NCBI RefSeq assembly: GCF_022655055.1
Contig: NZ_CP093384.1
Coordinates: 1,116,001 to 1,180,000 of the forward strand
Direction: 5' to 3'
DNA from: Vagococcus sp. CY52-2
Lineage (GTDB): Bacteria > Bacillota > Bacilli > Lactobacillales > Vagococcaceae
DNA length: 64,000 bases
In this document: positions 419-47,631 of the stretch, in pieces
How positions within the stretch are numbered: the first letter of the stretch is position 1
Layout of the letters: each line of letters starts with the position of its first letter
Translations under genes and position numbers: made by a program
The notes under the pieces: generated by a model
What the model was told of the DNA's origin: nothing
The model's input: the letters and a program-made list of their open reading frames with translations, nothing else
Database searches by the model: none

Positions 419-1336
419 TTAATCATCTAAGCTACTTAAATAATTATAAACTTCTTGTCCCGCGATACTACCGTCTCCAACAGCTGTCGCAATTTGTCTC
501 AAAACAGTTTCTCTAACATCTCCAATTGCGTAAATACCTGGAATGTTAGTTGCCATATGATTGTCTGTTTCAATCCATCCATTAGCATTTGTAATACCTA
601 AATCTTTAACAAAATCAGTCAACGGATCTAATCCAATATAAATAAATACACCATCCGCTAATAAGTCTTCTACTTCACCTGTTTTAGTATCCTCTAATTT
701 AATTGATTGCACACTCATATCATTTCCGTTTATCTCAATTGGAACTTTATTCCACATAAATTCAATTTTTTCATTTTTAAATGCACGATCTTGTAATATT
801 TTTTGCGCTCTTAATTCATCTCTTCTATGAACAATGGTTACTTTACTTGCAAACTGAGTTAAGTACATGCCTTCTTCAATCGCTGAGTCTCCTCCCCCAA
901 TCACAACTAAATGACGGTCTCTAAAGAATGCCCCATCACAAACTGCGCAATAAGATACACCACGTCCAGCGTACTCTTCTTCACCAGGGATATTGATTTT
1001 ACGATGTTCACTTCCTGAAGCAATAATCACCGTTTTTCCTTCATACTCTTCATCATCACACACTACTTTTTTAATAGCACCATGGTCTTCAATACTAACA
1101 ACATTTCCATAGACATGTTCTGCACCAAAGTTAGTAGAATTTTCATACATTTTAAGTGCTAAATCAGGACCGGAAATAAGATTAAATCCAGGATAATTTT
1201 CTACCTCATCTGTATTCATTAGCTGTCCGCCTGGTGCACCTCGTTCGATTACTAATACAGATAAGCCAGAACGAGAAGCATATAAAGCCGACGTCATTCC
1301 TCCAGGTCCTGCTCCTATAATAATTACATCATACAT
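419..1336 (-). CDS. trxB: Thioredoxin reductase (NADPH, FAD)
   Basis: The 305-residue length is typical. The N-terminal FAD-binding GxGxxG motif (IIGAGPGGM, residues 7-15), the redox pair C130-A-V-C133 followed by DGAFF, the NADPH-binding VIGGGDSA and the C-terminal GIYAIGDVR are all visible. The enzyme transfers electrons from NADPH through FAD and the disulfide to thioredoxin in the cytosol. The start is supported by an AGGGGG ribosome-binding site 9 bp upstream. It is monocistronic here, between ccpA and rodA. I did not see a strong terminator between its stop and the ccpA promoter. Confidence 0.95.
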   Translation of the reverse strand: MYDVIIIGAGPGGMTSALYASRSGLSVLVIERGAPGGQLMNTDEVENYPGFNLISGPDLALKMYENSTNFGAEHVYGNVVSIEDHGAIKKVVCDDEEYEGKTVIIASGSEHRKINIPGEEEYAGRGVSYCAVCDGAFFRDRHLVVIGGGDSAIEEGMYLTQFASKVTIVHRRDELRAQKILQDRAFKNEKIEFMWNKVPIEINGNDMSVQSIKLEDTKTGEVEDLLADGVFIYIGLDPLTDFVKDLGITNANGWIETDNHMATNIPGIYAIGDVRETVLRQIATAVGDGSIAGQEVYNYLSSLDD

Positions 1337-1584
1337 AATTAATACCCCCTATAGTTTTCTACTCATACTTTAACCTTTTCTATTTTTATTGTCTATTGAT
1401 TCGTCTTAACACTTAACATAACAACACTAAACTTTCTAAATTTAAACATAAGTAGGAAAAAAGATTAAAAATTCATTTAATTTCATTATTACTATATACT
1501 ATTATCAATAAAAGTGGTAGCTTATTACAAGTATGGACTTAAAATTTTTAATTAATATAACTAAATAAAGGATAAGATGACGGC

Positions 1585-2736
1585 ATGAAACGACAAGAAT
1601 ATCAACAACAAAACAATTTTAACTACGCGTTATTATTGCCAATATTTTTAATGCTTATTTTAAGTATTTGGCTACAGTATTGGGTAGCGTATTATGACCA
1701 AAATAATCCCACTAAACAAGCATTAAAACAACTGGTGTTTGTTGGACTAGGAACCGTTTTAATGTTTGGGGTAAAATACATCAAACGTGATATCATTTGG
1801 AAAGCTGTCCCATGGTTTTATGTGTTCTCACTACTTCTTATGGGTTCCTTGTATTTCTTTTACGACCCTCACATGTATGATTTAACCAACACAAAACGTT
1901 GGCTAGACATTTTTGGCTTTCAATTCCAACCATCAGAAATCGCTAAAACAGCTTACATTCTCTTTATATCTAAAGAACTCGTAAAATACAATAAGAGAGT
2001 CCCTGAAAAGGATATTCGTACTGATTTGGATATGGTAAAAAAATTAGCCTTGTATTCTCTTCCATTATTCTTTTTAATGTTTGTGCAAAAGGATTTTGGA
2101 ACAAGTTTAGTTTTCATTTGCGTTCTTGGCGCACTTATTGTGGCATCGGGTATTAACTGGCGAATTGTGGCTGTTCTGGGTGGTATTGCTGCTGTTTTAG
2201 GAGGAACACTCATTTTCTTGGTGTTTACTGATTTTGGTCAATCAATACTTTCCTCGCTACATTTTAAAGAATACCAATTAAACCGTATTAGAGCTTGGGT
2301 CAATCCTTTTGAGTATGCAACGTCTATTGCTTACCAGCAAGTACAAGGCCTCTTAGCTATTGGTTCTGGTGGATTATTTGGAACTGGAACAACCGGGGTA
2401 CAAGTTTATGTGCCAGTTAGAGAGTCTGACATGATTTTCACTTTCGTGGGTGAAGCATATGGTTTTGCTGGCGCAACGGCTGTTATTTTACTTTATTTTT
2501 ATCTGTTCTTCCAAATTTTCTATACTGGCATTAAAAGTAATTCTACCTTTAATATTTATATTTGTGTAGGAATTGTCTTTATGTTGGTTTTCCAAACATT
2601 CGAAAACATCGGAGCCTCAATAGGTTTGTTACCATTAACAGGTATTCCTCTTCCCTTCTTAAGTCAAGGAGGAACAGCCTTGGTCTCAACAATGTTAGCT
2701 CTTGGTTTAATTTTTGGAATGGATTCTAAAGCATAA
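1585..2736 (+). CDS. rodA: Rod-shape peptidoglycan polymerase RodA/FtsW family (SEDS)
   Basis: A 383-residue integral membrane protein with about ten hydrophobic segments. Family signatures are visible: KRWLDIFGFQFQPSE (substrate-site loop), AWVNPF, the long extracellular loop ending VPVRESDMIFTFVGEAYG, and the C-terminal GIPLPFLSQGG. SEDS proteins polymerise glycan strands from lipid II together with a class B PBP. RodA is favoured over FtsW because of length and the absence of a division-gene neighbourhood. RBS AAAGGATAAG precedes the ATG. A hairpin terminator follows immediately. Confidence 0.88.
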   Translation: MKRQEYQQQNNFNYALLLPIFLMLILSIWLQYWVAYYDQNNPTKQALKQLVFVGLGTVLMFGVKYIKRDIIWKAVPWFYVFSLLLMGSLYFFYDPHMYDLTNTKRWLDIFGFQFQPSEIAKTAYILFISKELVKYNKRVPEKDIRTDLDMVKKLALYSLPLFFLMFVQKDFGTSLVFICVLGALIVASGINWRIVAVLGGIAAVLGGTLIFLVFTDFGQSILSSLHFKEYQLNRIRAWVNPFEYATSIAYQQVQGLLAIGSGGLFGTGTTGVQVYVPVRESDMIFTFVGEAYGFAGATAVILLYFYLFFQIFYTGIKSNSTFNIYICVGIVFMLVFQTFENIGASIGLLPLTGIPLPFLSQGGTALVSTMLALGLIFGMDSKA

Positions 2737-2779
2737 AAAAACAATCAAATGCCGTCATGTGCATTTGATTGTTTTTTTA
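2735..2779. terminator. Bidirectional intrinsic terminator between convergent rodA and the 2777-3139 gene
   Basis: A perfect 12-bp stem (acaatcaaatgc 2741-2752 with 2761-2772) has an 8-nt loop and is flanked by an A-run on the left and a T-run on the right, so it can serve both strands. Confidence 0.85.
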
Positions 2780-3139
2780 TAAATAAATGTCTTTTTCAGC
2801 CAAATTATCTAAACATTCTTTTAAGTAGTCATCATGGTGCTCCGGATAAATTGGGGTTTCTATTGGAACTTCTGGTAACTTTGTATAAGCATCAATTGCT
2901 TTCCCTCTATACAAAGGATGTTTCCAAAGTGTATCAGGTTTATAACCTCTGTTTTCCATCTCGTTCATAATCAACCAATGGTATTGCACTAATTTATACG
3001 GGCTATGATCAAACACATAATTAACAGTTGAATGTGGTTTTCCCCACCCTTTACCTCTTAGCGCACAACACTCTCTATGCTGACCTAGTAGTTGTTGCCT
3101 TGGTAACTTAGGTATTAATACTTCATGCCATAATCTCAT
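2777..3139 (-). CDS. Pyrimidine-dimer DNA glycosylase-like protein (TIGR02328/PF03013 type)
   Basis: A 120-residue protein beginning MRLWHEVLIPKLPRQQLLGQHRECCALRG-like, which I recognise as the TIGR02328 family related to T4 endonuclease V. Conserved features seen are the near-N-terminal RLWHE, LPRQQLLGQHRE, the CCALRGKGWGK segment and HSPYKLVQYHWL. The family is predicted to cleave UV-induced pyrimidine dimers, but catalytic activity in these short proteins is inferred from homology only. It stands alone, convergent to rodA and sharing its terminator. RBS GGAGAG lies before the start. Confidence 0.72.
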   Translation of the reverse strand: MRLWHEVLIPKLPRQQLLGQHRECCALRGKGWGKPHSTVNYVFDHSPYKLVQYHWLIMNEMENRGYKPDTLWKHPLYRGKAIDAYTKLPEVPIETPIYPEHHDDYLKECLDNLAEKDIYL

Positions 3140-3216
3140 ATTTACTCTCCTATCAGATTATTTTACTGTTGGTATCCTACCATAAAATAACTAAATTTCA
3201 AAAAAATTAGTCTAAT

Positions 3217-4278
3217 TTACTTATTTCTTTTCTTTGCAAACAAAAAGTAACTAACAATCCCTAATACTAGAAGGACATTTAAACTAACTGCTAAAACTAA
3301 CCATTTATTTAATCCAACCGTTTTATCTGTTACTAAATCATCTAATTCATTTAGTTCCTTAGCTTGTTTTTGATCAATGTTTATTGTATCTGTTAATACC
3401 CACTCTAATCGTTCCTGATCTTCTTTATTTAATTCTCCTGTCATCCCACTAACCACTGCTTTATAAAAATACTCTCCATCTTCTAATTTCTTACCATTTA
3501 AAAAAGTCGGAAACTCAAAAATTGAATTAGGTGCAATCTGCATTTGCTCTTTTTTGTATTCATAATAAGGCTCGTTACTTCCTTTTTTTGTTAACGTACT
3601 CTTAATCGTTACTTGATTTAAATAAGCTGAAGATAAGTTTCTAATAGGTGCCGATACGCTTGTTTTAGTATTCAGTTCCATCGCTTTAACTTTCCCTAAC
3701 TTTAACTCAGGTTGTGTCTCAATACTGGCTGACTGTTGCATCAACAACGCTAGTACATAAGAAAACTTATTATTAACCGTTGTTTGACTAGATAATTGAT
3801 TCGATTTAACATTCCCCTCTTCTTCAAAAGAGATACCACTAGCTATAACTCCTGGAATATCTTTATTTGGCATGCTCACTTTAACTGACACTATTTTTTC
3901 TTCTTTAGGGGATAAAGTAATTATTTTATCTACTGTTATTTGCTTTGATAAATTTATCGGTAACGTCTCGTCAACTTTATTTTTTGTTGGACTATAATCA
4001 ATCACACCATTGATATTCGTCGTTGCACTCGCAACAGATGTTTTTAAGACCATTTCTTTTTCTGTATGATTTTTCAATTCAACGCTTAATTGTTGCTTAT
4101 TTCCTGCTTTTAATTGAATATGAAAATACCCACTTTCTTTATCAATCTGATTAGATGGTAATACTGGTGCTACTGAAAATCCAACTTGATTGGCGTATGT
4201 TACAATTGAAAACGACATATTTATCAAAACAAATAATACCATTACATAACCAATTTTTCGTACATTTTTCATCTTCAT
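3217..4278 (-). CDS. WxL-interacting cell-surface protein (DUF916 + DUF3324)
   Basis: 353 residues: a signal peptide (cleavage about residue 29, VTYA|N), a DUF916-type beta-sandwich (about 33-155, with VAPVLPSNQ and LSPKEEKIVSVKVSMP), a DUF3324-type domain (about 160-310), and a C-terminal membrane anchor (about 326-348) ending in KKRNK. Members bind peptidoglycan and partner WxL proteins at the cell wall. It follows the WxL gene at 4348-6675 on the same strand with a hairpin in the 69-bp gap, so it is probably co-expressed at a lower level. The start is preceded by AAGGAG. Confidence 0.85.
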   Translation of the reverse strand: MKMKNVRKIGYVMVLFVLINMSFSIVTYANQVGFSVAPVLPSNQIDKESGYFHIQLKAGNKQQLSVELKNHTEKEMVLKTSVASATTNINGVIDYSPTKNKVDETLPINLSKQITVDKIITLSPKEEKIVSVKVSMPNKDIPGVIASGISFEEEGNVKSNQLSSQTTVNNKFSYVLALLMQQSASIETQPELKLGKVKAMELNTKTSVSAPIRNLSSAYLNQVTIKSTLTKKGSNEPYYEYKKEQMQIAPNSIFEFPTFLNGKKLEDGEYFYKAVVSGMTGELNKEDQERLEWVLTDTINIDQKQAKELNELDDLVTDKTVGLNKWLVLAVSLNVLLVLGIVSYFLFAKKRNK

Positions 4279-4295
4279 TCTCCTTAATTAATAAA

Positions 4296-4334
4296 CATAA
4301 AAATCGACAGACTAGTGTTTTTCTAGTCTATCGA
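4296..4334 (-). terminator. Hairpin between the WxL gene and its DUF916 partner
   Basis: Stem 4304-4315 / 4323-4334 (11 of 12 pairs, G-U possible) is followed on the minus strand by TTTTTATG. It lies after the WxL stop and just before the RBS of the next gene, so it may attenuate rather than fully stop transcription. Confidence 0.6.
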
Positions 4335-4347
4335 CTAACATTTGACC

Positions 4348-6675
4348 TTATGGTGTTGGAACCATTGATAATTTATAAGTAATATTTGATTGATAAACTG
4401 TTTCTTTTGGATTTGCCGTACTTGGAACAGTTAAAATAACAGATGATTGACTAGCATCATTTGCGTTTAATTGACCTATATTATTGTCTTTACTTTGACC
4501 ATAAGACAATACCCACGTCCCCATTCCTTGACCTTTATTTGCTTTTAAAATAATTTGACTTTGTCCTGGAATTAATTCCATTCCTCCAGATAAAGTAGCA
4601 TCAGTCGCTTTTAATGGATGCGCTAAATGTTGTGGCATTGTTTTCACATCATAACCATCTTGTAACATATTAGGTGAATTCAATTGACCATTCCCTAATG
4701 TTAATTTCGCTCCAGTCAATTCATCATTGGTTGATGATTTAAACTGATTATCTTGTACAATCTGTAATACCCATCCTGATTGTGTTCCGCGTTTATCTGT
4801 TACCTGAACATAATTACCACGTAAAGCATCCGTTTCTTTAAATCGTTGAGCAAATGCTCCATAGTTTTTCAACGTTGGCTCAATCGTTGGTTGTCCAAAA
4901 GAAAAACTTGACGCATAATCAACCGATAATAATCCACCAGTACCTGGTTTAGTTTCAGTCCCATCAGGATTAAGTGGTGTTTGTGGTTCATTTGGGTTTT
5001 CAGGGTCTACTGGTTTTACTGCATCATCTGATTTTTTAAACTGAATTTGCCCAATGACACTATAGTCTAATGTTTTATTCTCCTCTTCTGGTTGAGGTAT
5101 CGGTGTTTCTGTTGCGCCATTTGAAATAGTGATGCCTTGTGTTAACACATTATTTTTGCCAAGTTTCACTCGGAAATTATACTCTCCTTCAAACTCAACT
5201 AAATACTCAACTTCTATACTTGCTGCACCTTTATCATCAGCAGATACAGAGAATTTTTCAGAATATCCTATTTTTTCGCTTAGTGCTTTATCAGCAACTT
5301 TTGTTTTCGCCACTTGATTTCCAAGTTCAAATCCATTTTGAGCAGTTGGGGTGTAGACGCCAAATTGATAATCAGATACGACTGAATTTGGTTTTAACCC
5401 TTCCATCTTAATAGTTGCTTTATTTATTTTATTTGCTACTGGCTTATCAGTAAAAACAACTGAAGTTGATGGTTGTGCTTGTGCTTTTTCAGCTGAACCA
5501 AAACTACCTGGTGCAAATGTTTTAGAATCAAACCATTTATAGTTAGCTTGTGGCGCTGCCCACGGCTCATCTTGAGGTTCAGTTGTCTTTTCTGGTACTT
5601 CATAATCATGAATTTTTGTAATACTTGATAGCACAGTACCACTTTCTGTAAATGTTTTATAGGTTTCTTTTTCTGATAACCAGTCAACTAATTGCATCAA
5701 AATCTTTTCATCATCAGCTTCTTTAAATCCATCATATGTTTTTTTAGATTTTCCATTTTCTTCTCTTAAATATTTTGGTGATGCATCTTCAACTAAAGAT
5801 GTGTCACCTAAAAAGGCTGCTTTACCATGATCACGTTTACTAATGGCAACATAAGGTCCTTCTTCAATCCCACCACCATTATAAACTCCTTCATCAACAG
5901 CGTGACCCCATTTATTGGCACTTGTTAATCCTTTAGGTGGATAAATCAAACCCTTAGCACGAGTATTATCAGTGATTGCTAAAGTACTTCCAGCATGAAG
6001 CCCTATTTTTTTTACGCCTTCTGTAATACCAAATGCATCCTCAATAATCCATTCTTGTGTTTTATTATTAATATTATCAAGTGCATTGTATCTAAAACGA
6101 ATACCAAATGTGTCACTTAGCCAATCACTACTTTTAACATCTTTCATAGCATCTGAGTTTTTTTCTTCAGTTGTCATGTCTTTTGTCATATCTTGATAAG
6201 CACCACGTCGATACCCATTAAACGCTTCGCTTGAATCAATACGGTTTTTATTGCGATCAGCGTTATAATGATCAGCTATATAAAAGACAGCTCCACCTTG
6301 GCTAACATAATCAGCTATAGCTTGTTGTTCACCAATTTTGTAAGGAATATTTGCTTCGGGTAAAACAAATACATCATACTCTTCTAAATCTGAGAGCGTA
6401 ATGGGGGGTGTTTTCCTTAATTCTTTCACAAAATACCCTTTTTCCGATAAAGCGTTTGCAAAATCTGAAAATGCTCCATCTATAACCCAGTCAGCAGCTC
6501 CTGCTGTTTGGCCATGTGTGTTATCAAATAATACTTTTTTATTATTATTCGTCACACTTGAAGCGTTAATTTCTGGCGCTTTATCCAGTGCTGTTTCAGC
6601 TCCAACTGAAACAGAAAATAGCATTGTGCTCGCCAACACTACCAACAAACGCGAGGTGAACCTAGACTTTCTCAT
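4348..6675 (-). CDS. WxL-domain surface protein with N-terminal amidotransferase-like (GIFT/DUF4350-like) domain
   Basis: 775 residues with a signal peptide (about 1-26, SVGA|ET). Residues about 46-350 form an alpha/beta domain starting KVLFDNTHGQTAGAADWVID; similar stretches occur in Bacillus secreted proteins and have a class-I-amidotransferase/GIFT-like look, with no obvious catalytic triad, so the activity is unknown. A linker follows (about 350-535). The C-terminal WxL region (about 535-775) carries a Pro-rich PENPNEPQTP spacer, the first motif GWVLQIV (W635) and an extra TWVLSYG (W721). The terminal motif reads YQSNITYKLSMVP, with Tyr where the family usually has Trp. WxL domains bind peptidoglycan non-covalently. 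Its partner DUF916 protein lies downstream. Confidence 0.82.
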   Translation of the reverse strand: MRKSRFTSRLLVVLASTMLFSVSVGAETALDKAPEINASSVTNNNKKVLFDNTHGQTAGAADWVIDGAFSDFANALSEKGYFVKELRKTPPITLSDLEEYDVFVLPEANIPYKIGEQQAIADYVSQGGAVFYIADHYNADRNKNRIDSSEAFNGYRRGAYQDMTKDMTTEEKNSDAMKDVKSSDWLSDTFGIRFRYNALDNINNKTQEWIIEDAFGITEGVKKIGLHAGSTLAITDNTRAKGLIYPPKGLTSANKWGHAVDEGVYNGGGIEEGPYVAISKRDHGKAAFLGDTSLVEDASPKYLREENGKSKKTYDGFKEADDEKILMQLVDWLSEKETYKTFTESGTVLSSITKIHDYEVPEKTTEPQDEPWAAPQANYKWFDSKTFAPGSFGSAEKAQAQPSTSVVFTDKPVANKINKATIKMEGLKPNSVVSDYQFGVYTPTAQNGFELGNQVAKTKVADKALSEKIGYSEKFSVSADDKGAASIEVEYLVEFEGEYNFRVKLGKNNVLTQGITISNGATETPIPQPEEENKTLDYSVIGQIQFKKSDDAVKPVDPENPNEPQTPLNPDGTETKPGTGGLLSVDYASSFSFGQPTIEPTLKNYGAFAQRFKETDALRGNYVQVTDKRGTQSGWVLQIVQDNQFKSSTNDELTGAKLTLGNGQLNSPNMLQDGYDVKTMPQHLAHPLKATDATLSGGMELIPGQSQIILKANKGQGMGTWVLSYGQSKDNNIGQLNANDASQSSVILTVPSTANPKETVYQSNITYKLSMVPTP

Positions 6676-6989
6676 TTTTTTCTCTCCTTTTCTTCATCAG
6701 TTATTTTACTGATTAATTAAAGTATAGATTTGAATTGTAAAGTTTATGTAAAAAAAACGTAAACTTTAACAAATAACTCATTTATACCTTAAAAGGTTCG
6801 GTTATAAAACGAACATTCTGAATTGATAGCGCTATATACATAATAGTTATTCTATTATTAAAGTATATGTTACTTATATCAGTAAAAAACCTTTAAAAAT
6901 AACTAATGCTTTTTTATTTAACGTGCTATAAAAATAATATTCATTGTTTTTTATTTTTATGATATACTTTAAAGAAATGTTAGGACGTG
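6676..6989. other. Divergent intergenic region with inverted repeats
   Basis: This AT-rich 0.3-kb stretch separates the WxL gene (minus) from the acetyltransferase (plus). It contains an imperfect 11-bp inverted repeat (6739-6749 / 6757-6767, arms AAAGTTTATGT and ACGTAAACTTT) about 65 bp upstream of the WxL start, and a smaller one, GTTCG...CGAAC, around 6798-6816. Either could be an operator. I see no gene here. Confidence 0.4.
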
Positions 6990-7556
6990 ATGTGTTTGCT
7001 ATATTTTAAATTACCTGTCAATTCGACGATTGCTTTAGTTAAACCTGAATGCCATATGGCTGAAGAATTTTTTCTTCTTGTTAGAAAAAATAAAGAACAT
7101 TTAGAAACATTTCTCGATTTTGTTGCTTTCACTAATGTCGTAAAAGATAGTGAACATTTCATCGCTCGCTCAATTAAGCAAGAAGCTGAACAAAAAGAGG
7201 TTGTTTTATTTATTTTGGATAATACAAAAATTATTGGATGTATTGACCTCCACAATATCAATACAACTCATAAAAAGGCTGAAATTGGCTACTGGCTGGA
7301 TTATGATTACAATGGGAAAAATATCATGACAGAATGTGTCAAATGTCTAACTGACATTGCTTTTAATAACTTAAAATTAAATAAATTGGTTATAGTTGCT
7401 GAAGATACTAACATAGCAAGTAACCAAGTAGCTAAAAAATCAGGTTTTCATTTTGATGGAGTGGATAGAGAAGATATTTATAGGCAACATCATTTCGTCA
7501 ATTTAAACCGATATAGTTTACTAAAATCTGAATATCAAAAAGCAAAAAAAGATTAA
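6990..7556 (+). CDS. GNAT-family N-acetyltransferase, RimJ/RimL type
   Basis: About 188 residues. It shows the RimJ/RimL layout: a basic N-terminal strand, IIGCIDLHNIN, EIGYWLDYDYNGKNIMTECVK (acetyl-CoA pyrophosphate loop region), KLVIVAEDTNIASNQVAKKSGF and a C-terminal YSLLKSE. Members acetylate ribosomal-protein N termini or small molecules; the substrate here cannot be told. The start is uncertain: GTG at 6987 and ATG at 6990 are adjacent, and the AGGA at 6982-6985 is rather close. Monocistronic with its own terminator. Confidence 0.8.
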   Translation: MCLLYFKLPVNSTIALVKPECHMAEEFFLLVRKNKEHLETFLDFVAFTNVVKDSEHFIARSIKQEAEQKEVVLFILDNTKIIGCIDLHNINTTHKKAEIGYWLDYDYNGKNIMTECVKCLTDIAFNNLKLNKLVIVAEDTNIASNQVAKKSGFHFDGVDREDIYRQHHFVNLNRYSLLKSEYQKAKKD

Positions 7557-7585
7557 CCCTTTCATTAAAGGTTAATCTTTTTTTG
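7541..7585. terminator. Bidirectional terminator between acetyltransferase and GH85 genes
   Basis: An 11-bp stem AAAGATTAACC (7548-7558) / GGTTAATCTTT (7570-7580) is flanked by an A-run and a T-run, and lies between convergent genes. Confidence 0.85.
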
Positions 7586-7594
7586 TGTTTACTC

Positions 7595-10429
7595 TTACAT
7601 ACCCAAAATATCAATACCATAAATTCTGGCAGCTGAATCGGCACCTTGACTTGGTTTATCAAGTGTAATTCGAACATACTGTGCTTTAACTGGTGCAAAG
7701 GTATCTGTTGTTTCAGCAGCAGCATTACTAATAACACGCTTAACTTGTTTGAACTCTTTTCCATCTTCACTCACTTCGATTTTATAAGCTTTTGAGTTCA
7801 TATCTGGACTTTCTCCACCTGCTTCTGCATGGAACATGTTTACTTGGCTTACTGTTTTAACAGCACCTAAATCAATTGTAATATCATGTGGTGCTGAGCC
7901 AACTGCACACCATTTTGTCTCTAAATTACCGTCTAAAACAAATTGTGGGGCTTCACCATCATTGATAAATGATGATGCTTCAACTTGACTGTCTTTTGTC
8001 GATAACTTTTCAAGTTCATCTTTGATTTCTTCGCTCACAACAATGAATTTTTCTTGTTCCATCACTGACTCACCAGATTTATTTTTAGCTGTTAATTTAA
8101 CTTTATAACTTCCTTCTTTCTCAAAGGTTACAACTGGATTTTCTTTAGTACTAGATTTTATGTCACCACCCTCAAATTCCCAAATAAGTTCATCAGCATT
8201 ATCTGTTGATTGATTAGTAAATGTTACTTCTTTACCTGGTGCAATTAATGTTTGTGATGCTGTAAAGTCGGCTTTTGGCAAACTATTATCAGGCCATTCC
8301 AAAACGATTGTTTCTGTCTGTTTTCCTCTTTTACCAAATACATCAACTGGCACAACTTCAAGGGTTGTCTTATTCGATTCTCCTACTCTTTCTAATGCAT
8401 TGATATAGTGAGTAGTTGATAGTGTTGCACCAATAAAGGAGCGAGACTTATCATCGTTCACTTGATAAATATCATAGTGACTTAGACCATCTGTTTTATC
8501 TGATTCCCACGTTAAGCGCACACCAGCAAAATTGCTTTCTTCTTCATCAAATATGGCGTCTTCTATTGTTAACTTTTTAACATCCATCACTGATTTTTCT
8601 TCTTTTGGTAACATAGCCAATTCACCCAACTTAAACTCATAATCAGGTGCATCTGATGTTGTTTTCCACTCATAAGAGATATCAGTAATCGTTTTTCCAA
8701 CTAGTTTATCTGTGTCATAAGTCACTCGTGTCCAATCTTCCTTAATTGCTCCATTTGGACTAAGAACTTGTTTTTTACCATTTTTTAATGTTGCAACCAG
8801 ATTTAATTCTGTTTCTTCATTGGCTTTAGCCGTTGTAGATATCTTCGTATTTTTATCTATGGTCATATCTGTTCGATATAAATGAATCGTATTGGTGGCA
8901 TTTTTCTTCATGTTTCCACGATATTTTAGTGAATTCCCTCCGTTATAAGCATCGGCATAGTCAATCGACATGCTCCCTTCATTTCCTTTGCCATGATCAA
9001 TTTCCCAACGATATGTTGGCATGATATCTTGTAAACTTCGATTGTTCCAATTTCTACTAGAGACTTTTTCCCCATCAATGAAATAATTATAACCATTTCC
9101 TAGATTAAAATTCGTTTTAAATGGCACACTAGTAATCGCTGTTTGCTCGATAGAAAATGTCGAAATACCAGGCCATTCGCCCTCTTTTGGTAATACGGCT
9201 TGTCTTGGATCTGATTGGGAATTTACCCAAAAAATATTCTCTTTCATTTGGAAATCATCAGGGTTATCTGTTGAAGCGTACGTCCAACTTGGAACATAAA
9301 GACCTAACGATGTATAAGGTTTCCCTTTTTCATTCATAAATAAATCCCACTTAACAGGTGTTGAGTAACCATTTTCCTGAACATCAATCCCTGCATAAAG
9401 TGAATAAGGATCAATCCCTTCTTTTTGTGCTTTAATATTCGATTCTTTTAATAAATCATCTTTGGCAAATTTTTCCGTATTCCACCAGAAATTTAAAAAC
9501 ATGGAATCAGATAACGGATTCATCTGACTATCAACAAGATACGATTTATTTTCATCTGTTAACGCATTTTGCCAATCCATTTTTCCTTTAGATGTCATCG
9601 AATCATACCACATAATATCTAATGTTTCTGGTGCTGTTTCTTTAAATTCTTTGATTAACTCCATCATTAAAGTAGCATGTTCTTTTGTTAAACCATCTTC
9701 TGTCGTCTTCTCTGTTTCTTTTCCATCTTTTACATCATCAAAACTAGTCACAAGATTATCTGTTTCTTGATTGATAAACCAGCCATCAAATCCATACGTT
9801 TCTGCAACCTCAATCATTTTATCAACTGCAGGAAAATGACCTTTATTATCTTTTTGTAAAAATTCATCTAGCCATTCAATTTTTCCTCCATGCTCTGTTT
9901 GTGGGAAAAAGATTGTTCCTAAAACCGGCACGCCATTTTTATGAGAGGCATCAATCACATCTGGACTAGGTGGAACAATAATTCCTTCTCCTGCAGAACC
10001 ACCCCAATAAACCAACTGATCAATGTATTGCCAATAAGAAAAAACATTGGCATCAAATGTATTAATACCAAACGGGGCGTTACCACTTGTACTGCTATTC
10101 ATAATCGATAAAGCAACCACTTTCGTTTGTTTATCCTGAATATCATTAGATGGTGTTAATTCTTTTTTATCTACTCGTTTTGCTAACGGAATATTACTGA
10201 CATTATATTTTGCATCTGAATCTTTAGTAACATCCCACGCTAAAAAATCTTCCGGGAACCAATAAGAAGATTCTGGTTGATTATCCATCCCACGATCTAT
10301 TTTGCTTGATGGTGTTTCTGAATAGACAAAGTCATTGGCTGATTTACTATTAGAACATCCTGAAACCACTAAACCTGTCGACATTAACATAATAATCATT
10401 GATGAGTGTGTCATTCTTTTTTTATGCAT
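7595..10429 (-). CDS. Endo-beta-N-acetylglucosaminidase, GH85 lipoprotein with PKD and F5/8C-like domains
   Basis: 944 residues. A lipoprotein signal ends in VVSGC (lipid-attached Cys25). The GH85 catalytic domain spans about 55-470, with the signature GFDGWFINQETD placing the catalytic pair at N220 (oxazoline-orienting) and E222 (acid/base). GH85 enzymes cleave the GlcNAc-GlcNAc core of N-glycans. Downstream come a beta-sandwich (about 480-620), a fibronectin-like stretch, a PKD-type domain (about 715-800, VTFTNQSTDN...WEFEGG) and a C-terminal F5/8 type C (CBM32-like) domain (about 820-944). It should act on host glycoproteins from the cell surface. A strong RBS (CGGGGGAA) and an upstream cre-like site are present. 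Confidence 0.9.
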   Translation of the reverse strand: MHKKRMTHSSMIIMLMSTGLVVSGCSNSKSANDFVYSETPSSKIDRGMDNQPESSYWFPEDFLAWDVTKDSDAKYNVSNIPLAKRVDKKELTPSNDIQDKQTKVVALSIMNSSTSGNAPFGINTFDANVFSYWQYIDQLVYWGGSAGEGIIVPPSPDVIDASHKNGVPVLGTIFFPQTEHGGKIEWLDEFLQKDNKGHFPAVDKMIEVAETYGFDGWFINQETDNLVTSFDDVKDGKETEKTTEDGLTKEHATLMMELIKEFKETAPETLDIMWYDSMTSKGKMDWQNALTDENKSYLVDSQMNPLSDSMFLNFWWNTEKFAKDDLLKESNIKAQKEGIDPYSLYAGIDVQENGYSTPVKWDLFMNEKGKPYTSLGLYVPSWTYASTDNPDDFQMKENIFWVNSQSDPRQAVLPKEGEWPGISTFSIEQTAITSVPFKTNFNLGNGYNYFIDGEKVSSRNWNNRSLQDIMPTYRWEIDHGKGNEGSMSIDYADAYNGGNSLKYRGNMKKNATNTIHLYRTDMTIDKNTKISTTAKANEETELNLVATLKNGKKQVLSPNGAIKEDWTRVTYDTDKLVGKTITDISYEWKTTSDAPDYEFKLGELAMLPKEEKSVMDVKKLTIEDAIFDEEESNFAGVRLTWESDKTDGLSHYDIYQVNDDKSRSFIGATLSTTHYINALERVGESNKTTLEVVPVDVFGKRGKQTETIVLEWPDNSLPKADFTASQTLIAPGKEVTFTNQSTDNADELIWEFEGGDIKSSTKENPVVTFEKEGSYKVKLTAKNKSGESVMEQEKFIVVSEEIKDELEKLSTKDSQVEASSFINDGEAPQFVLDGNLETKWCAVGSAPHDITIDLGAVKTVSQVNMFHAEAGGESPDMNSKAYKIEVSEDGKEFKQVKRVISNAAAETTDTFAPVKAQYVRITLDKPSQGADSAARIYGIDILGM

Positions 10430-10468
10430 TATTTTTCCCCCGAATATTATAATTTTATTCCACTAATA

Positions 10469-10482
10469 TAATAACGCTTACA
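10469..10482 (-). promoter_or_regulatory. cre site upstream of the GH85 gene
   Basis: Minus-strand TGTAAGCGTTATTA matches 13 of 14 positions of the CcpA-binding consensus TGWAARCGYTWNCW, 40 bp upstream of the start codon. Carbon catabolite repression of the endoglycosidase is the natural reading. Confidence 0.65.
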
Positions 10483-10541
10483 TAAAGAAGTTTTAATGAA
10501 CAAACTAAATATTTGATTCAACAAACTATATAATATTCAAC

Positions 10542-10590
10542 AAAAAAACACAGTTTAAATTTTATATGTTCACATAAAATTCAAACTGTG
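10542..10590 (-). terminator. Terminator of the PanE-family gene
   Basis: A 17-bp stem with one mismatch (10549-10565 / 10574-10590) and an 8-nt loop is followed on the minus strand by seven T. Confidence 0.9.
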
Positions 10591-10597
10591 ATGTTTT

Positions 10598-11539
10598 TTA
10601 TTTTGCTCCAACAATTTCTTCTTTGGAATGAATTAATAAAGTTAAAAATTCACAATAAGGTGTTTCTATACCATATTCTTTTCCTTTACGAACAATTGCA
10701 CCATTGATGTAATCAATTTCTGTTAAACGATTATTAATAACTAAATCTTGATACATTGAAGGATGGTGTAAACCAATTGTCTCTCTATTAAAACAACCAT
10801 TAATTTGTTCAATAACAGCTTCTTCATCTAAAAAAACATTTTCAACACGAGCAACCGCTAAAAATTCAGAAACAATTTTTTTAATGATTGTATTAGCACT
10901 TGATGTATCACCAAAATCTGCCATATTAGAATCTAAAATAGTACAAAGCCCATTCATCGTACCATTTACACATGCTTTTCGATAAATTGACGTTAAAATA
11001 TCTTGAGATACTCTAGCATTTAGATCTGCATTCGTTAACACGTCAGCTACTTTTTGTGCCACATCTTCTTTACCTTCACCCAAATTTTGTAGATCAATAC
11101 TTCCGTTACCAAATAAAGTCACTTTACCTGGTCCTTCCATACCAGCTGTCCACATTGTATTTCCAAGCAAAATATTGTCATAATCTACATATTTTTTAAT
11201 CACATCTTCATGCCCAATACCATTTAACAGGCATAACACGATGGTATCTTTACCTAACATATTATCAAGTGATTGAAGCATGTTATCTAGTTGCATTGCT
11301 TTAGTAAATAAAATAACTAAATCAGCTGAAAATTCAACCTCTGACAAGTCATTTTGATTATAAGCTGGGATAAATTCTGTTATTTCTTCTCCATTAAAAT
11401 TGGCTTTTAATCCATTTTGGTTAATCTCGTCAATGTGTTGTTGCCAACCATCAACTAAAATAACATTTTCTCCTGCTTGTTTTAACATAATACCAAAACG
11501 GCTACCCATTGCTCCTGCACCTGCTATTACTATATTCAT
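10598..11539 (-). CDS. panE: 2-dehydropantoate 2-reductase family protein (PanE/ApbA)
   Basis: 313 residues. The N-terminal NADP-binding Rossmann motif GAGAMGSRFG (7-16), the central NG(I/M)GHEDVI segment, the NMWTAG-type loop and the C-terminal RKACVNGTMNGLC helix, with the conserved Lys of the family, are visible. Family members reduce ketopantoate to pantoate in pantothenate/CoA synthesis, but ApbA/PanE paralogs also act on other 2-keto acids, so the substrate is only probable. It lies 410 bp downstream of an EIIC_2-type membrane protein on the same strand. RBS GGAGG precedes the ATG. Confidence 0.78.
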   Translation of the reverse strand: MNIVIAGAGAMGSRFGIMLKQAGENVILVDGWQQHIDEINQNGLKANFNGEEITEFIPAYNQNDLSEVEFSADLVILFTKAMQLDNMLQSLDNMLGKDTIVLCLLNGIGHEDVIKKYVDYDNILLGNTMWTAGMEGPGKVTLFGNGSIDLQNLGEGKEDVAQKVADVLTNADLNARVSQDILTSIYRKACVNGTMNGLCTILDSNMADFGDTSSANTIIKKIVSEFLAVARVENVFLDEEAVIEQINGCFNRETIGLHHPSMYQDLVINNRLTEIDYINGAIVRKGKEYGIETPYCEFLTLLIHSKEEIVGAK

Positions 11540-11949
11540 TTAAACTTCCTCCAACTAAGTATTTACCATTTTTTATAGTACTATTAATATAGAACGTTTA
11601 CAATATCATCTTTTTGTCTTATGTTTTAAATATTACTTGATAAGACATCCTTTTATCACAATTTTGTAAACAAATCCATATAATATATTGAGTTATCTCC
11701 TAATACATTACTGTTAAACCTTTAAAAAGAGCCTACTTTATCCTTATCAACTAACTACATAATGATGCCATCTATATATTAGAAAAAATCATTTTTTTTT
11801 AAATATAAACTAGACTTTTTTACATGATGATTGTTTGCAAGTGTTAATCCATAATCTATAAAAAAACGATTCTATCTAATCATTTCTAGTTGAACTTATT
11901 GTAATAAAAGTTTTAATACCCCTTAATCCTTCCAAACTATTAAAGGAAA
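11540..11949 (-). promoter_or_regulatory. Intergenic region: EIIC_2 gene terminator and panE upstream region with weak cre-like site
   Basis: No gene is seen. On the minus strand a short terminator (7-bp stem 11865-11871 / 11878-11884, then TTTTTT) lies about 65 bp after the membrane-protein stop. A 12/14 cre-like site (minus TGTAAACGTTCTAT, 11589-11602) lies about 50 bp upstream of the panE start. The two genes therefore probably have separate promoters. Confidence 0.4.
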
Positions 11950-12999
11950 CTAACCTTGATAAGCGAACACTATTTTACTGTCATAAAGTTTTAATACTTT
12001 TTCAAAAATGAATTTTGACAGAAGTCCTGCTGCAATTGGAACAACAAACCAACATATGATTAATAGAATAATATTTAATCCTGAATCAAGTGAAGCAAGT
12101 GGTCCAACTAACCCAACAAGCCCAAAACCAGCTGATTGAGGTATTCCAGAAATATTTAGCAAAGCCACTGGAATAGCAGAAATAATTGCTGTAAATAACA
12201 CCGGTACTAAAATAATTGGATATTTAAATAAGTTAGGCATCATCATTTTCATCCCACCTAATGCAATGGCTAAAGTTACACCCGATTCATTAGTTTTCCA
12301 TGAATTAATAACTAATACAATCGTTGTCGCTGCTATTCCCATAGCAGCTGCACCAGCCGATACACCATTTAACCCGATAGCAAGTCCAATCCCTACTGTT
12401 GTAATTGGAGAAATAATCAGTGTGGCAAAAGAACAGGCAATTAAAATACTCATCACAATTGGTTGGAAATCAGTAAAATTATTAATTAATTTTCCAATAG
12501 CAACTGTAATTTGTGTTACAAATGGATAAGCTATCATACCGATTAAACCGGCACCTACACCTATAACAATTGGCATGGCAATAATTTCAACTGAACCAAA
12601 TTTACTTCCAATGTATAACATCATCAATACAGCGACCGATGCAGTAATCATAATATTAATAATATCTCCAGTACCTGCACCTACATAAGAGTTGATATCT
12701 GTATTAAATTTAATAACACCTGATCCCGCAAAAGCAGCACCTCCAGCAATCATCATTTTTGTTGGAGTTAAACCAAATTGATGAGCAATTAACGCTCCTA
12801 TGATTAATGGGGTTGCTAATTGAAAAATTAATCCAGCATGAATAATCATTTGTATAATGTCATATTGTGAGAAATATTTTAAAATTGCTCCTAATACCGC
12901 GTTTGGAATCAAGGCAATAATTGTACCTTGAGCTGTACCAGCTAAAACCTTATTAAGAAACAGGCGTGGGGTTAATTTTGTTTCTTCTGTTTTTGTCAT
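11950..12999 (-). CDS. PTS EIIC_2-type membrane transporter (PF13303-like), substrate unknown
   Basis: 349 residues with about nine to ten membrane segments rich in Gly/Ala/Ile, and an N-terminal motif TPRLFLNKVLAGTAQGTIIALIPNAV that I associate with the PF13303 EIIC family. NESGVTLAIALGGMKMMMPN and PLASLDSGLN are the most conserved-looking loops. No EIIA or EIIB gene lies nearby, so phosphotransfer dependence is doubtful and the protein may act as a secondary transporter. Proximity to a PanE-family reductase may reflect a shared metabolite. RBS TAGGAG. A long upstream region (13000-13377) may form a leader. Confidence 0.7.
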   Translation of the reverse strand: MTKTEETKLTPRLFLNKVLAGTAQGTIIALIPNAVLGAILKYFSQYDIIQMIIHAGLIFQLATPLIIGALIAHQFGLTPTKMMIAGGAAFAGSGVIKFNTDINSYVGAGTGDIINIMITASVAVLMMLYIGSKFGSVEIIAMPIVIGVGAGLIGMIAYPFVTQITVAIGKLINNFTDFQPIVMSILIACSFATLIISPITTVGIGLAIGLNGVSAGAAAMGIAATTIVLVINSWKTNESGVTLAIALGGMKMMMPNLFKYPIILVPVLFTAIISAIPVALLNISGIPQSAGFGLVGLVGPLASLDSGLNIILLIICWFVVPIAAGLLSKFIFEKVLKLYDSKIVFAYQG

Positions 13000-13377
13000 A
13001 TCAAAAACTCCTATTAATATTATTTTTATAGTTTGGGAAAAATTTCACTTACTTAAATAAATAATGAGACCTCCTGATTATCTCAAGAAATCTATCTTTA
13101 TCCATAACGTTTGGTAGGTTAAACTAAACCCAATAACTATTTGATTCAGATGAAAAATTTATTTTAACATCTTTTAAACAAGCCCTAATTTGTTAACCAT
13201 CCAGAATTCTGTAATCAATTGATAGACATAAGTTTATCATATTCGTAGTTTGAAATCTACTATCTTTTTTATACAATATATTTTGTTTATTAGATATTTT
13301 TTGATATTATTGTATCTTTTATTCTTAACTTATATTGACTATTTTAGTTTTCTGCTAAACCGTTTGCTTTTTTGAAA
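13000..13377. other. Long upstream region of the EIIC_2 gene, no recognised element
   Basis: Nearly 400 bp of AT-rich sequence without a credible gene. Read on the minus strand it has candidate -10 sequences around 13230-13250, giving a leader of roughly 200 nt or more. A small inverted repeat (TGAGATAATCAGGAGGTCTCA, with arms TGAGA/TCTCA) lies near 13065-13085. I could not match it to any riboswitch class. Confidence 0.3.
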
Positions 13378-45678: not shown

Positions 45679-45689
45679 GAATGGAGGCG
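45679..45689. repeat. Distal att-like repeat (degenerate tmRNA 3' end)
   Basis: GAATGGAGGCG followed by ATGGAGTAACTATCCCTAAAC, which aligns imperfectly with the tmRNA T-arm sequence at 47276-47300. Confidence 0.6.
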
Positions 45690-45931
45690 ATGGAGTAACT
45701 ATCCCTAAACCTCTAATTGATATTGATAGTTTTTATTATTATATATTTAAAATATTACACTTTTTTAAATGATTATTAAACATTATAAAATACTAACCGT
45801 ATTCTATTAGCCTTCATTAACACAAAAAAATTAATATCATATAATGAAAAACAAACTAATATCTATCAAAAATCAAGATAGAACATCATTTAATATTATT
45901 CTTTTTACATTGTAAAACCTTTATGAATAAT

Positions 45932-47017
45932 TTATCCTCCAATAGTAGTATATTTTTTGGGTAATTTTTCTATTAGCTTATCTATTTTATTTTGGAATTG
46001 TTTCATAGTCCCATACATTAAAATATTATAAAGAGACGTAAATTCTTTCTTGTCTTTATATAATCTTATTTTACTAACATTAGCTATGTAAAAATCGTAA
46101 GTTTCCGATAACTCTAATTCTAATTCTTTATTGGTCAGTTGAAGTTTTCTTTGAACATCAATAATTGAAGCTTTTATATAAGAAGTATCGATATTATATT
46201 TATGAATATTTATATAATCAGGATCAGAATTTCCCACTCCAGTTAATTCTAAAACTAAAGAAGCTAGTAAGCAATGTAAAGACTGATGTAGATTGTTTTG
46301 TGATTCATATATATCGGATTGATAGAGAAGATTACTACAGGCCGCACCATAATTTAACTCTATTAAATTTCCTCTAAAAGTTTTTTCTGAAACAAATATT
46401 GCGATTTCCTCATTAGCTTTTCCAGAATTCAGATAAGGTAATACTGTTAGAGGAGTAACTGTAAAATCTTTAGATCCATTTTTGTGTGTCCAAATAATTA
46501 GGTCGTATTTATCTACTATTCTTTGCCCTTTTTTAGTTAAATGCCATGATGGAGATAATCGATGAGCATACTCACTTTCAGATATATTATCTATAATTCT
46601 TTGTATAAGTTCACTCTTGTTACCAGACATTTTTAAATTATTTAGCTTTAAAATATTTTTTAAATCTATAACTTTTAGAGATATCAAAGATTCAGATGGA
46701 GTAGCTGTTCGAATAAAATTATGATGTTTTAATTTAGTAATCGATGTATTTGTATTTATATTATATGTTGCTGCAAAATATTGAGGTGGAAGACTACTTT
46801 GTTTTTTATTAGATAGCCACTCAATTAATAAAATTTCTCCAACTTTTAACCCATCTAATAAAAGTGAATCAGGATAATAATTATTTTGATTTATATAATT
46901 ACTTTCTATATAGGAAGATATATTGTTAATATTTTCCTGTTTATTTTGAGTTTGTGATTCCTTTTTTTTAGAATTTTTTGTATTTCTTTTTTTAGGATTT
47001 ATATTTTTTTCTTGATT
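45932..47017 (-). pseudogene. SAP-domain protein frame without a start codon; needs a -1 shift from the preceding ORF
   Basis: The reading frame is open from just after a TAG at 47018-47020 to TAA at 45932-45934 (361 codons) with no ATG in its first 110 codons and no SD near the TTG at 46687. It codes for a Lys/Asn-rich linker, a stretch LLDGLKVGEILLIEWLSNK, a SAP-type helix-extension-helix (SLKVIDLKNILKLNNLKMSG...SELIQRI), and a C-terminal helical region. SAP motifs usually bind DNA. A -1 shift in the A7 run at 47004-47010 would fuse it to the membrane-anchor ORF, giving about 395 residues. It may be a frameshift mutation or a slippage-controlled gene. Confidence 0.6.
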
Positions 47018-47118
47018 CTAAAAAAGTAAATAAGAAAACTAATAATCATTATGAGTACAGAAATATGGGGTAAAGCTATAGCTAAAATAATCAATAAGAT
47101 AATAACTACCCAAGTCAT
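46999..47118 (-). CDS. Small membrane protein (39 aa), possible N-terminal anchor of the SAP-domain protein
   Basis: ATG at 47118 with a strong RBS (AAAGGAG, 7 bp). 39 codons, almost entirely hydrophobic (MTWVVIILLIILAIALPHIS...), ending FRIKKKI and TAA at 46999-47001. The hydrophobic length allows one long or two short membrane segments. The last codons contain a seven-A run where a -1 slip enters the long SAP-domain frame. Alone it resembles small hydrophobic peptides. I favour its being the N-terminal part of the larger gene. Confidence 0.55.
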   Translation of the reverse strand: MTWVVIILLIILAIALPHISVLIMIISFLIYFFRIKKKI

Positions 47119-47143
47119 AAAATCGCTCCTTTTTAAATAAGAA

Positions 47144-47177
47144 TATCAAAAAAGACACTAGCTTTATAGTGTCTTTT
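47144..47177 (-). terminator. Terminator downstream of ssrA, inside the inserted segment
   Basis: 11-bp stem AAAAGACACTA (47150-47160) / 47167-47177, 6-nt loop, T6 on the minus strand. A second hairpin without T-run (arms AGTTTGTTTCA/TGAAACAAACT) lies nearer to the tmRNA, at about 47225-47251. Confidence 0.85.
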
Positions 47178-47264
47178 ATAAGATTATTTTTAATAAATTC
47201 ATTATTTCCTTTTTTTACATCATTAGTTTGTTTCATCATTTGAAACAAACTGATCTTACTATCA

Positions 47265-47275
47265 GAATGGAGGCG
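47265..47275. repeat. Proximal att-like repeat at the tmRNA 3' end
   Basis: GAATGGAGGCG, containing the last 8 bases of the tmRNA acceptor strand (47268-47275). Identical to 45679-45689. Confidence 0.6.
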
Positions 47276-47631
47276 GCGGGAGTCGAACCCGCGTCCAAAC
47301 ATATTGCCACTTAAACATCTACGCTCATAGTTATCCTATTTGAGTTTCACTCAAGTCTCTGCCGAATAACAGGCCGTGACTTTCGCTAGTCTGGTAATCT
47401 CTTCTAAATTTTACAGACGGAAAAATTTAGCGTATCCCACTCAATTTGAGACCCTTACTTGAGCACATGGGCGATGCCAAGAGGATCTTTACCCGCTGTT
47501 TTTAGGCAGCTAAGGCAAAAGTATTGTTTTCGTTTTTAGCAGTTATATTTAACTGTAACGTTTTAACGTAGACGTAACCTACGAAGCGCAATTCAAGCTC
47601 AAACTATGCCTGTCGAATCCGTAACGCCCCC
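47268..47631 (-). ncRNA. ssrA: tmRNA (10Sa RNA)
   Basis: 364 nt. The 5' GGGGGCGTTACGGATTCGAC (from 47631) pairs with the 3' CGCCTCC (one G-U), the T-arm GGTTCGACTCC is intact, and the tag frame GCT...TAA (47502-47540) encodes AKNENNTFALAA, typical of Enterococcaceae. The discriminator A (47268) is followed by TTC, so CCA is not encoded. It rescues stalled ribosomes by trans-translation. The 3' end doubles as the insertion site of the 45.7-47.3 kb segment. Confidence 0.97.

Follow-up and report, generated by a model that had tools for sequence, protein, structure and literature searches.

Two open frames at an A7 run

On the minus strand of the 64-kb window, by which we mean the whole stretch of DNA that was analysed, a short hydrophobic ORF is followed by a much longer open frame for which no conventional start was found. 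The short ORF (47118-46999) has 39 codons, starts with an ATG downstream of the Shine-Dalgarno (SD) sequence AAGGAG and ends AAG AAA AAA ATA TAA; a first-pass annotation of this DNA had described it as well initiated and with this same ending. Its product, MTWVVIILLIILAIALPHISVLIMIISFLIYFFRIKKKI, reaches a maximal hydropathy of 2.99 over 19 residues and is probably a membrane anchor. The two open frames overlap by about 20 bases, from TAG at 47020-47018 to TAA at 47001-46999, and the A7 run (47004-47010) lies inside this overlap. Past that TAG, no stop interrupts the -1 frame until the one at 45932; counted from 47002 it contains 356 codons, so that the position of the run and the openness of the frame were correctly annotated, whereas the length of 357 codons was not. 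The frame encodes, at its start, a basic linker with one more A7 and an A8, followed by a predicted winged-helix-like module with a SAP domain (approximately residues 45-175), and a helical C-terminal part.

The first-pass annotation stated that this frame has neither an ATG nor an internal SD sequence before its SAP motif, and both statements held. The first ATG, GTG or TTG is the TTG at 46687, which is already within the SAP region, and none of the near-cognate codons preceding the conserved core has a convincing SD sequence at proper spacing. An ATA codon (47000-47002) overlaps the stop of the anchor ORF as AUAA and is a possible weak re-initiation site, with no good SD upstream. Since 356 stop-free codons would be expected by chance with a probability of about 1e-15 at the local base composition, the frame is coding now or was so until recently. 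The A7 at the junction is itself ordinary, because among the 53 ORFs in the window that reach 100 aa, 34 contain a run of A7 or longer and keep their frame.

A small insert at ssrA

These frames appear to lie in what is left of a prophage or satellite, flanked by att sequences and inserted at ssrA, a setting that had gone unnoticed in the first-pass annotation. The tmRNA gene ssrA, the insertion target, was located by ARAGORN at 47268-47631 on the minus strand (tag AKNENNTFALAA), directly upstream. An 11-bp att core, CGCCTCCATTC on the minus strand, is present at the 3′ end of the tmRNA (47265-47275) and is directly repeated at the distal junction (45679-45689). The 1,586 bp delimited in this way (45679-47264) contain both the anchor ORF and the SAP frame, with a GC content of 24% against 33% for the window. 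The genome of a sister species (G008) has the empty site, with the same core stretch; there the tmRNA continues without interruption into what, in the window, comes after the distal repeat. Thus, the insert bears both marks of an ssrA-integrated mobile element: two copies of the att core enclose it, and a relative has the site unoccupied. No ORF for an integrase or a repressor was found in the 1,586-bp insert, and the rest of the genome holds distant integrases only. Because integrase and repressor are missing, we read the insert as the remnant of a prophage or a phage satellite, in which both genes were presumably lost along with the rest of the element.

The same target is used in other lactic acid bacteria. 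Latilactobacillus sakei prophages, including TMW 1.23 P1 and FAM18311 P1, are integrated at ssrA with the att sequence AATGGAGCCGGCG (PMC9641780), which corresponds to the core of the insert at the 3′ end of the tmRNA; those prophages are complete and carry an integrase, whereas the insert described here is 1.59 kb long and has none. In a congener (G001), the same ssrA site holds a different element of about 12 kb with a tyrosine integrase, a repressor and replication genes (L065, G001:C11:1-13600, at about 700-13026), and this element is satellite-like, with no structural genes recognised in it. Another congener carries an arsenic-resistance-like cluster at the site downstream of ssrA (L067, G012:C1:1246000-1257000; 3600-4000 and 9542-9905, minus strand), the ORFs of which were named by eye as ArsR-like, ArsD-like, two ArsA-like, Acr3-like and arsenate-reductase-like. 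This cluster is bounded by a second, 5′-lacking copy of the tmRNA comprising approximately its last 220 nt, a duplication that covers more than half of the tmRNA gene and extends beyond the att core alone.

Between the tmRNA and the ORF pair there is an intrinsic-terminator-like hairpin (47150-47177, minus strand) with an 11-bp stem followed by a T-rich tail; one such hairpin was found where 0.7 were expected. A short ORF (MNLLKIIL; 47140-47205, minus strand) with AGGAAA upstream ends just before this hairpin, which precedes the anchor ORF. The layout resembles an attenuator and may be a product of chance.

The SAP protein and its relatives

The first-pass annotation's call of a SAP domain in the startless frame was substantiated by Pfam, which placed PF02037 at residues 108-139 (46586-46681, minus strand) with an E value of 1e-6 and a score exceeding the gathering score. 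The body also matches phrog_10777 (E 2.4e-8), and Pfam, phrog_10777 and the alignments together indicate that it has both the SAP domain and a conserved N-terminal module of the form G-E-I-x-L-L-x-W ... P-x-Y-F. From its sequence, we assign the body to the phage lysogeny-module SAP proteins, phrog_10777-like. By sequence, its solved SAP relatives are THO1, MKL1 and SIZ1. When the open frame was modelled, confidence was good at about residues 45-175 only and low elsewhere; in the confident part, helices 54-64, 75-80 and 84-93 and strands 97-99 and 153-155 surround the three SAP helices, an arrangement that suggests a winged-helix-like fold into which SAP is inserted. Significant Foldseek matches to the body were viral (phage) SAP proteins only, with E values down to 1e-11. 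A weak match to FAN1 (E 2.4e-3, TM-score 0.26) was not used. The SAP domain and the modelled fold suggest that the protein probably binds DNA, and no match to a defence system was found for it.

Roughly 30 relatives were examined. The order, class and G152-family searches covered samples of genomes, so the survey is not exhaustive. No close orthologue (core identity above about 43%) was found among viral contigs, genome contigs, phages, plasmids, and the genomes of the genus and family; comparison of the insert with phages at the DNA level gave no match, and the anchor plus linker used as a query retrieved generic TM-plus-lysine proteins only. Homologues lie between a repressor and an integrase in Latilactobacillus phage TMW 1.46 P2, Streptococcus phage Javan617, L073, L071 and the G152 prophage. 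The family is encoded in the lysogeny modules of temperate Firmicutes phages, where the order is repressor, SAP gene, integrase. This position is usual in the family, is not required for homology, and is not seen in the insert. L089 and L090 are SAP relatives that occur as solo chromosomal genes. In L069 (L069:5827-6810) the N-terminal SAP module is kept, but the domain at the C-terminal end is Mu F-like (Pfam PF04233), a layout that L005 resembles, and the family seems to swap its C-terminal domains.

Most relatives are soluble, have short amphipathic N-termini (e.g. MGLFSKFFKS and MNFFKNIFNKK), and begin near the point at which the open frame of the window begins. The proteins of TMW 1.46 P2 (WAX23980.1; 30.7% identity over 302 residues, 85% of the query) and Javan617 share the N-terminal module and the SAP region with the window product; they differ in being soluble, in one frame with their own start, and encoded by complete phages with an integrase. 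A TM segment and a SAP body in a single frame were found in two relatives, L073 and L086. L073 (IMGVR_UViG_2895226163_000001) has an N-terminal TM anchor, a basic linker and the SAP module in 394 aa, compared with 395 for the fused window product; unlike the latter it is read in one frame, its gene lies directly between a cI-type repressor gene and an integrase gene, and its 34% identity is confined to the SAP region. L086, from genome G852, is the best-scoring relative (E 2e-31) and has the same order of TM hairpin, KK, linker of about 50 residues, SAP core and helical C-terminus, and the read-through window product is collinear with it from the anchor through the C-terminal part, no gap exceeding 3 residues. 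It differs from the window product in that anchor and body share one frame, and its extreme N-terminus is not clean. Because the TM segment resembled those of L086 and L073 no more closely, letter by letter, than shuffled hydrophobic sequences did (400/1000 for L086), the comparison with L086 is one of architecture and spacing only. At about 2760-2670 on the minus strand of L086, a TTG frame preceded by an SD sequence is ended by a TAG after 15 codons. Downstream of that TAG lies an ATA that may serve as the start, with GAGGTG six bases before it; the N-terminus of L086 may reflect an unusual start or a nonsense mutation.

The comparison of orthologues that the first-pass annotation had proposed was made with distant relatives only: L073 and L086 are in a single frame, and the split anchor/body layout was seen in none of the roughly 30.

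Possible origins of the split layout

We consider it reasonably probable that the two frames derive from one phage gene for a membrane-tethered SAP protein, which an indel in its A-rich linker recently disrupted, within the prophage or satellite remnant at ssrA. According to this account, what remains of the temperate phage or satellite in the ssrA attachment site, 1.59 kb, would have retained one lysogeny-module gene. Its product would have begun with a TM anchor and a basic linker and continued with the winged-helix-like/SAP module and a C-terminal part made of helices. Since no close orthologue was found, the ancestral frame is reconstructed from distant relatives only, two of which have TM and SAP parts in one frame, and the exact lesion is placed by inference, core identity to the nearest relatives not exceeding about 43%. 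Anchor and body would have been put out of frame by a small indel, whose likeliest place is the A-rich, lysine-coding stretch at the A7 or next to it, leaving the full protein at a trace level or absent. Ribosome sliding on lysine codons, a subject of PMC4363877, may provide such trace-level expression. The membrane-tethered SAP product of about 395 residues proposed by the first-pass annotation is plausible as the ancestral protein. Single substitutions would create a stop in the SAP frame in 6.4% of cases, with a median of about 11 to the first stop, and none is present; because the frame is still open, the break would be recent or some selection would remain.

One alternative, which we hold to be unlikely, is that the overlapping frames are two genes, one for a small membrane peptide and one for a soluble SAP protein whose start is coupled at the AUA overlapping the stop. 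The ATA/TAA overlap (AUAA) is arranged just as in the common AUGA overlap, and an ATA start would place 51 residues before the core, compared with about 49-57 in the soluble relatives P0002, L005 and L087; however, ATAA before TAA stops is frequent by chance in such A-rich DNA, and the amphipathic FF/K N-terminus seen in the soluble relatives would be missing from the ATA-started product. As a start codon AUA is very poor, and here no SD sequence precedes it. Even CUG reaches just 0.86% of AUG (PMC11497404). In no relative does the SAP gene overlap with a small membrane ORF of its own standing. L016 was considered as a parallel two-gene layout and rejected, its membrane ORF being the tail of a larger frame-broken gene that is whole (264 aa) in L022.

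It is also rather unlikely, in our judgement, that the deletion of most of the prophage brought a small membrane gene at one end up against a SAP gene deprived of its own start, with the A7 as a coincidence. Large deletions did occur, as the repressor, the integrase and all structural genes are gone, and the short soluble N-terminus with which most relatives start would agree with such a fusion. The single-frame TM-SAP proteins L073 and L086 argue against it, as does the linker length, which in L086 matches that of the window product.

The first-pass annotation had offered three options, an inactivating indel, programmed -1 frameshifting and transcriptional slippage, and it is the indel, as in the broken-gene account above, that fits best. 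Recoding at the A7, by programmed frameshifting or by slippage, with the short peptide made alongside a full-length SAP protein tethered to the membrane, strikes us as quite improbable. The A7 does lie within the short overlap with the frame of the body intact, and the 106 nt from the A7 fold better than shuffled sequences (z -3.0; 3/200), but the fold is weak, at -8 kcal/mol in all with stems of 4-5 bp and wide internal loops. The heptamer is G_AAA_AAA_A and not X_XXY_YYZ, so a tandem -1 slip of both tRNAs is not possible at the junction, and there is no internal SD sequence. Slippage by E. coli RNA polymerase requires more than 7 A and is undetectable on fewer than 8 (PMC6260861), and selection against runs typically starts at nine, with a length that varies by organism (PMC1088944); the A7 thus falls short of the run of about 8-9 or more of a transcriptional-slippage gene, a threshold that varies between organisms. 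The layout also recurs in none of the relatives, all of which are distant.

We give equally little credit to an assembly error in the homopolymer that would leave the gene intact in the organism. Homopolymers are the usual site of such errors, but the other genes in the 64 kb are in frame with 50 runs of A7 or longer, the suspicious overlapping ORF pairs in the window proved to be separate families, and the genome was scored 100% complete in 2 contigs. Homopolymer error as a window-wide problem was not seen in the 64 kb. Finally, we regard as very improbable the idea that the insert at ssrA still functions, as a non-autonomous cargo element for bet-hedged lysogenic conversion, in which one gene gives a constant small membrane peptide and, by slippage, lysine-codon sliding or AUA re-initiation, a rare membrane-tethered SAP protein.

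On the broken-gene account, then, this locus is a case in which a plausible-looking frameshift site most likely represents decay in a phage remnant. Judging from gene position and domain content only, the intact protein probably worked at the membrane of lysogens, perhaps conferring immunity to other phages. The locus draws attention to an uncharacterised winged-helix-like/SAP family of lysogeny modules, some members of which are TM-tethered, and for which a role in immunity or superinfection exclusion is conjectural.
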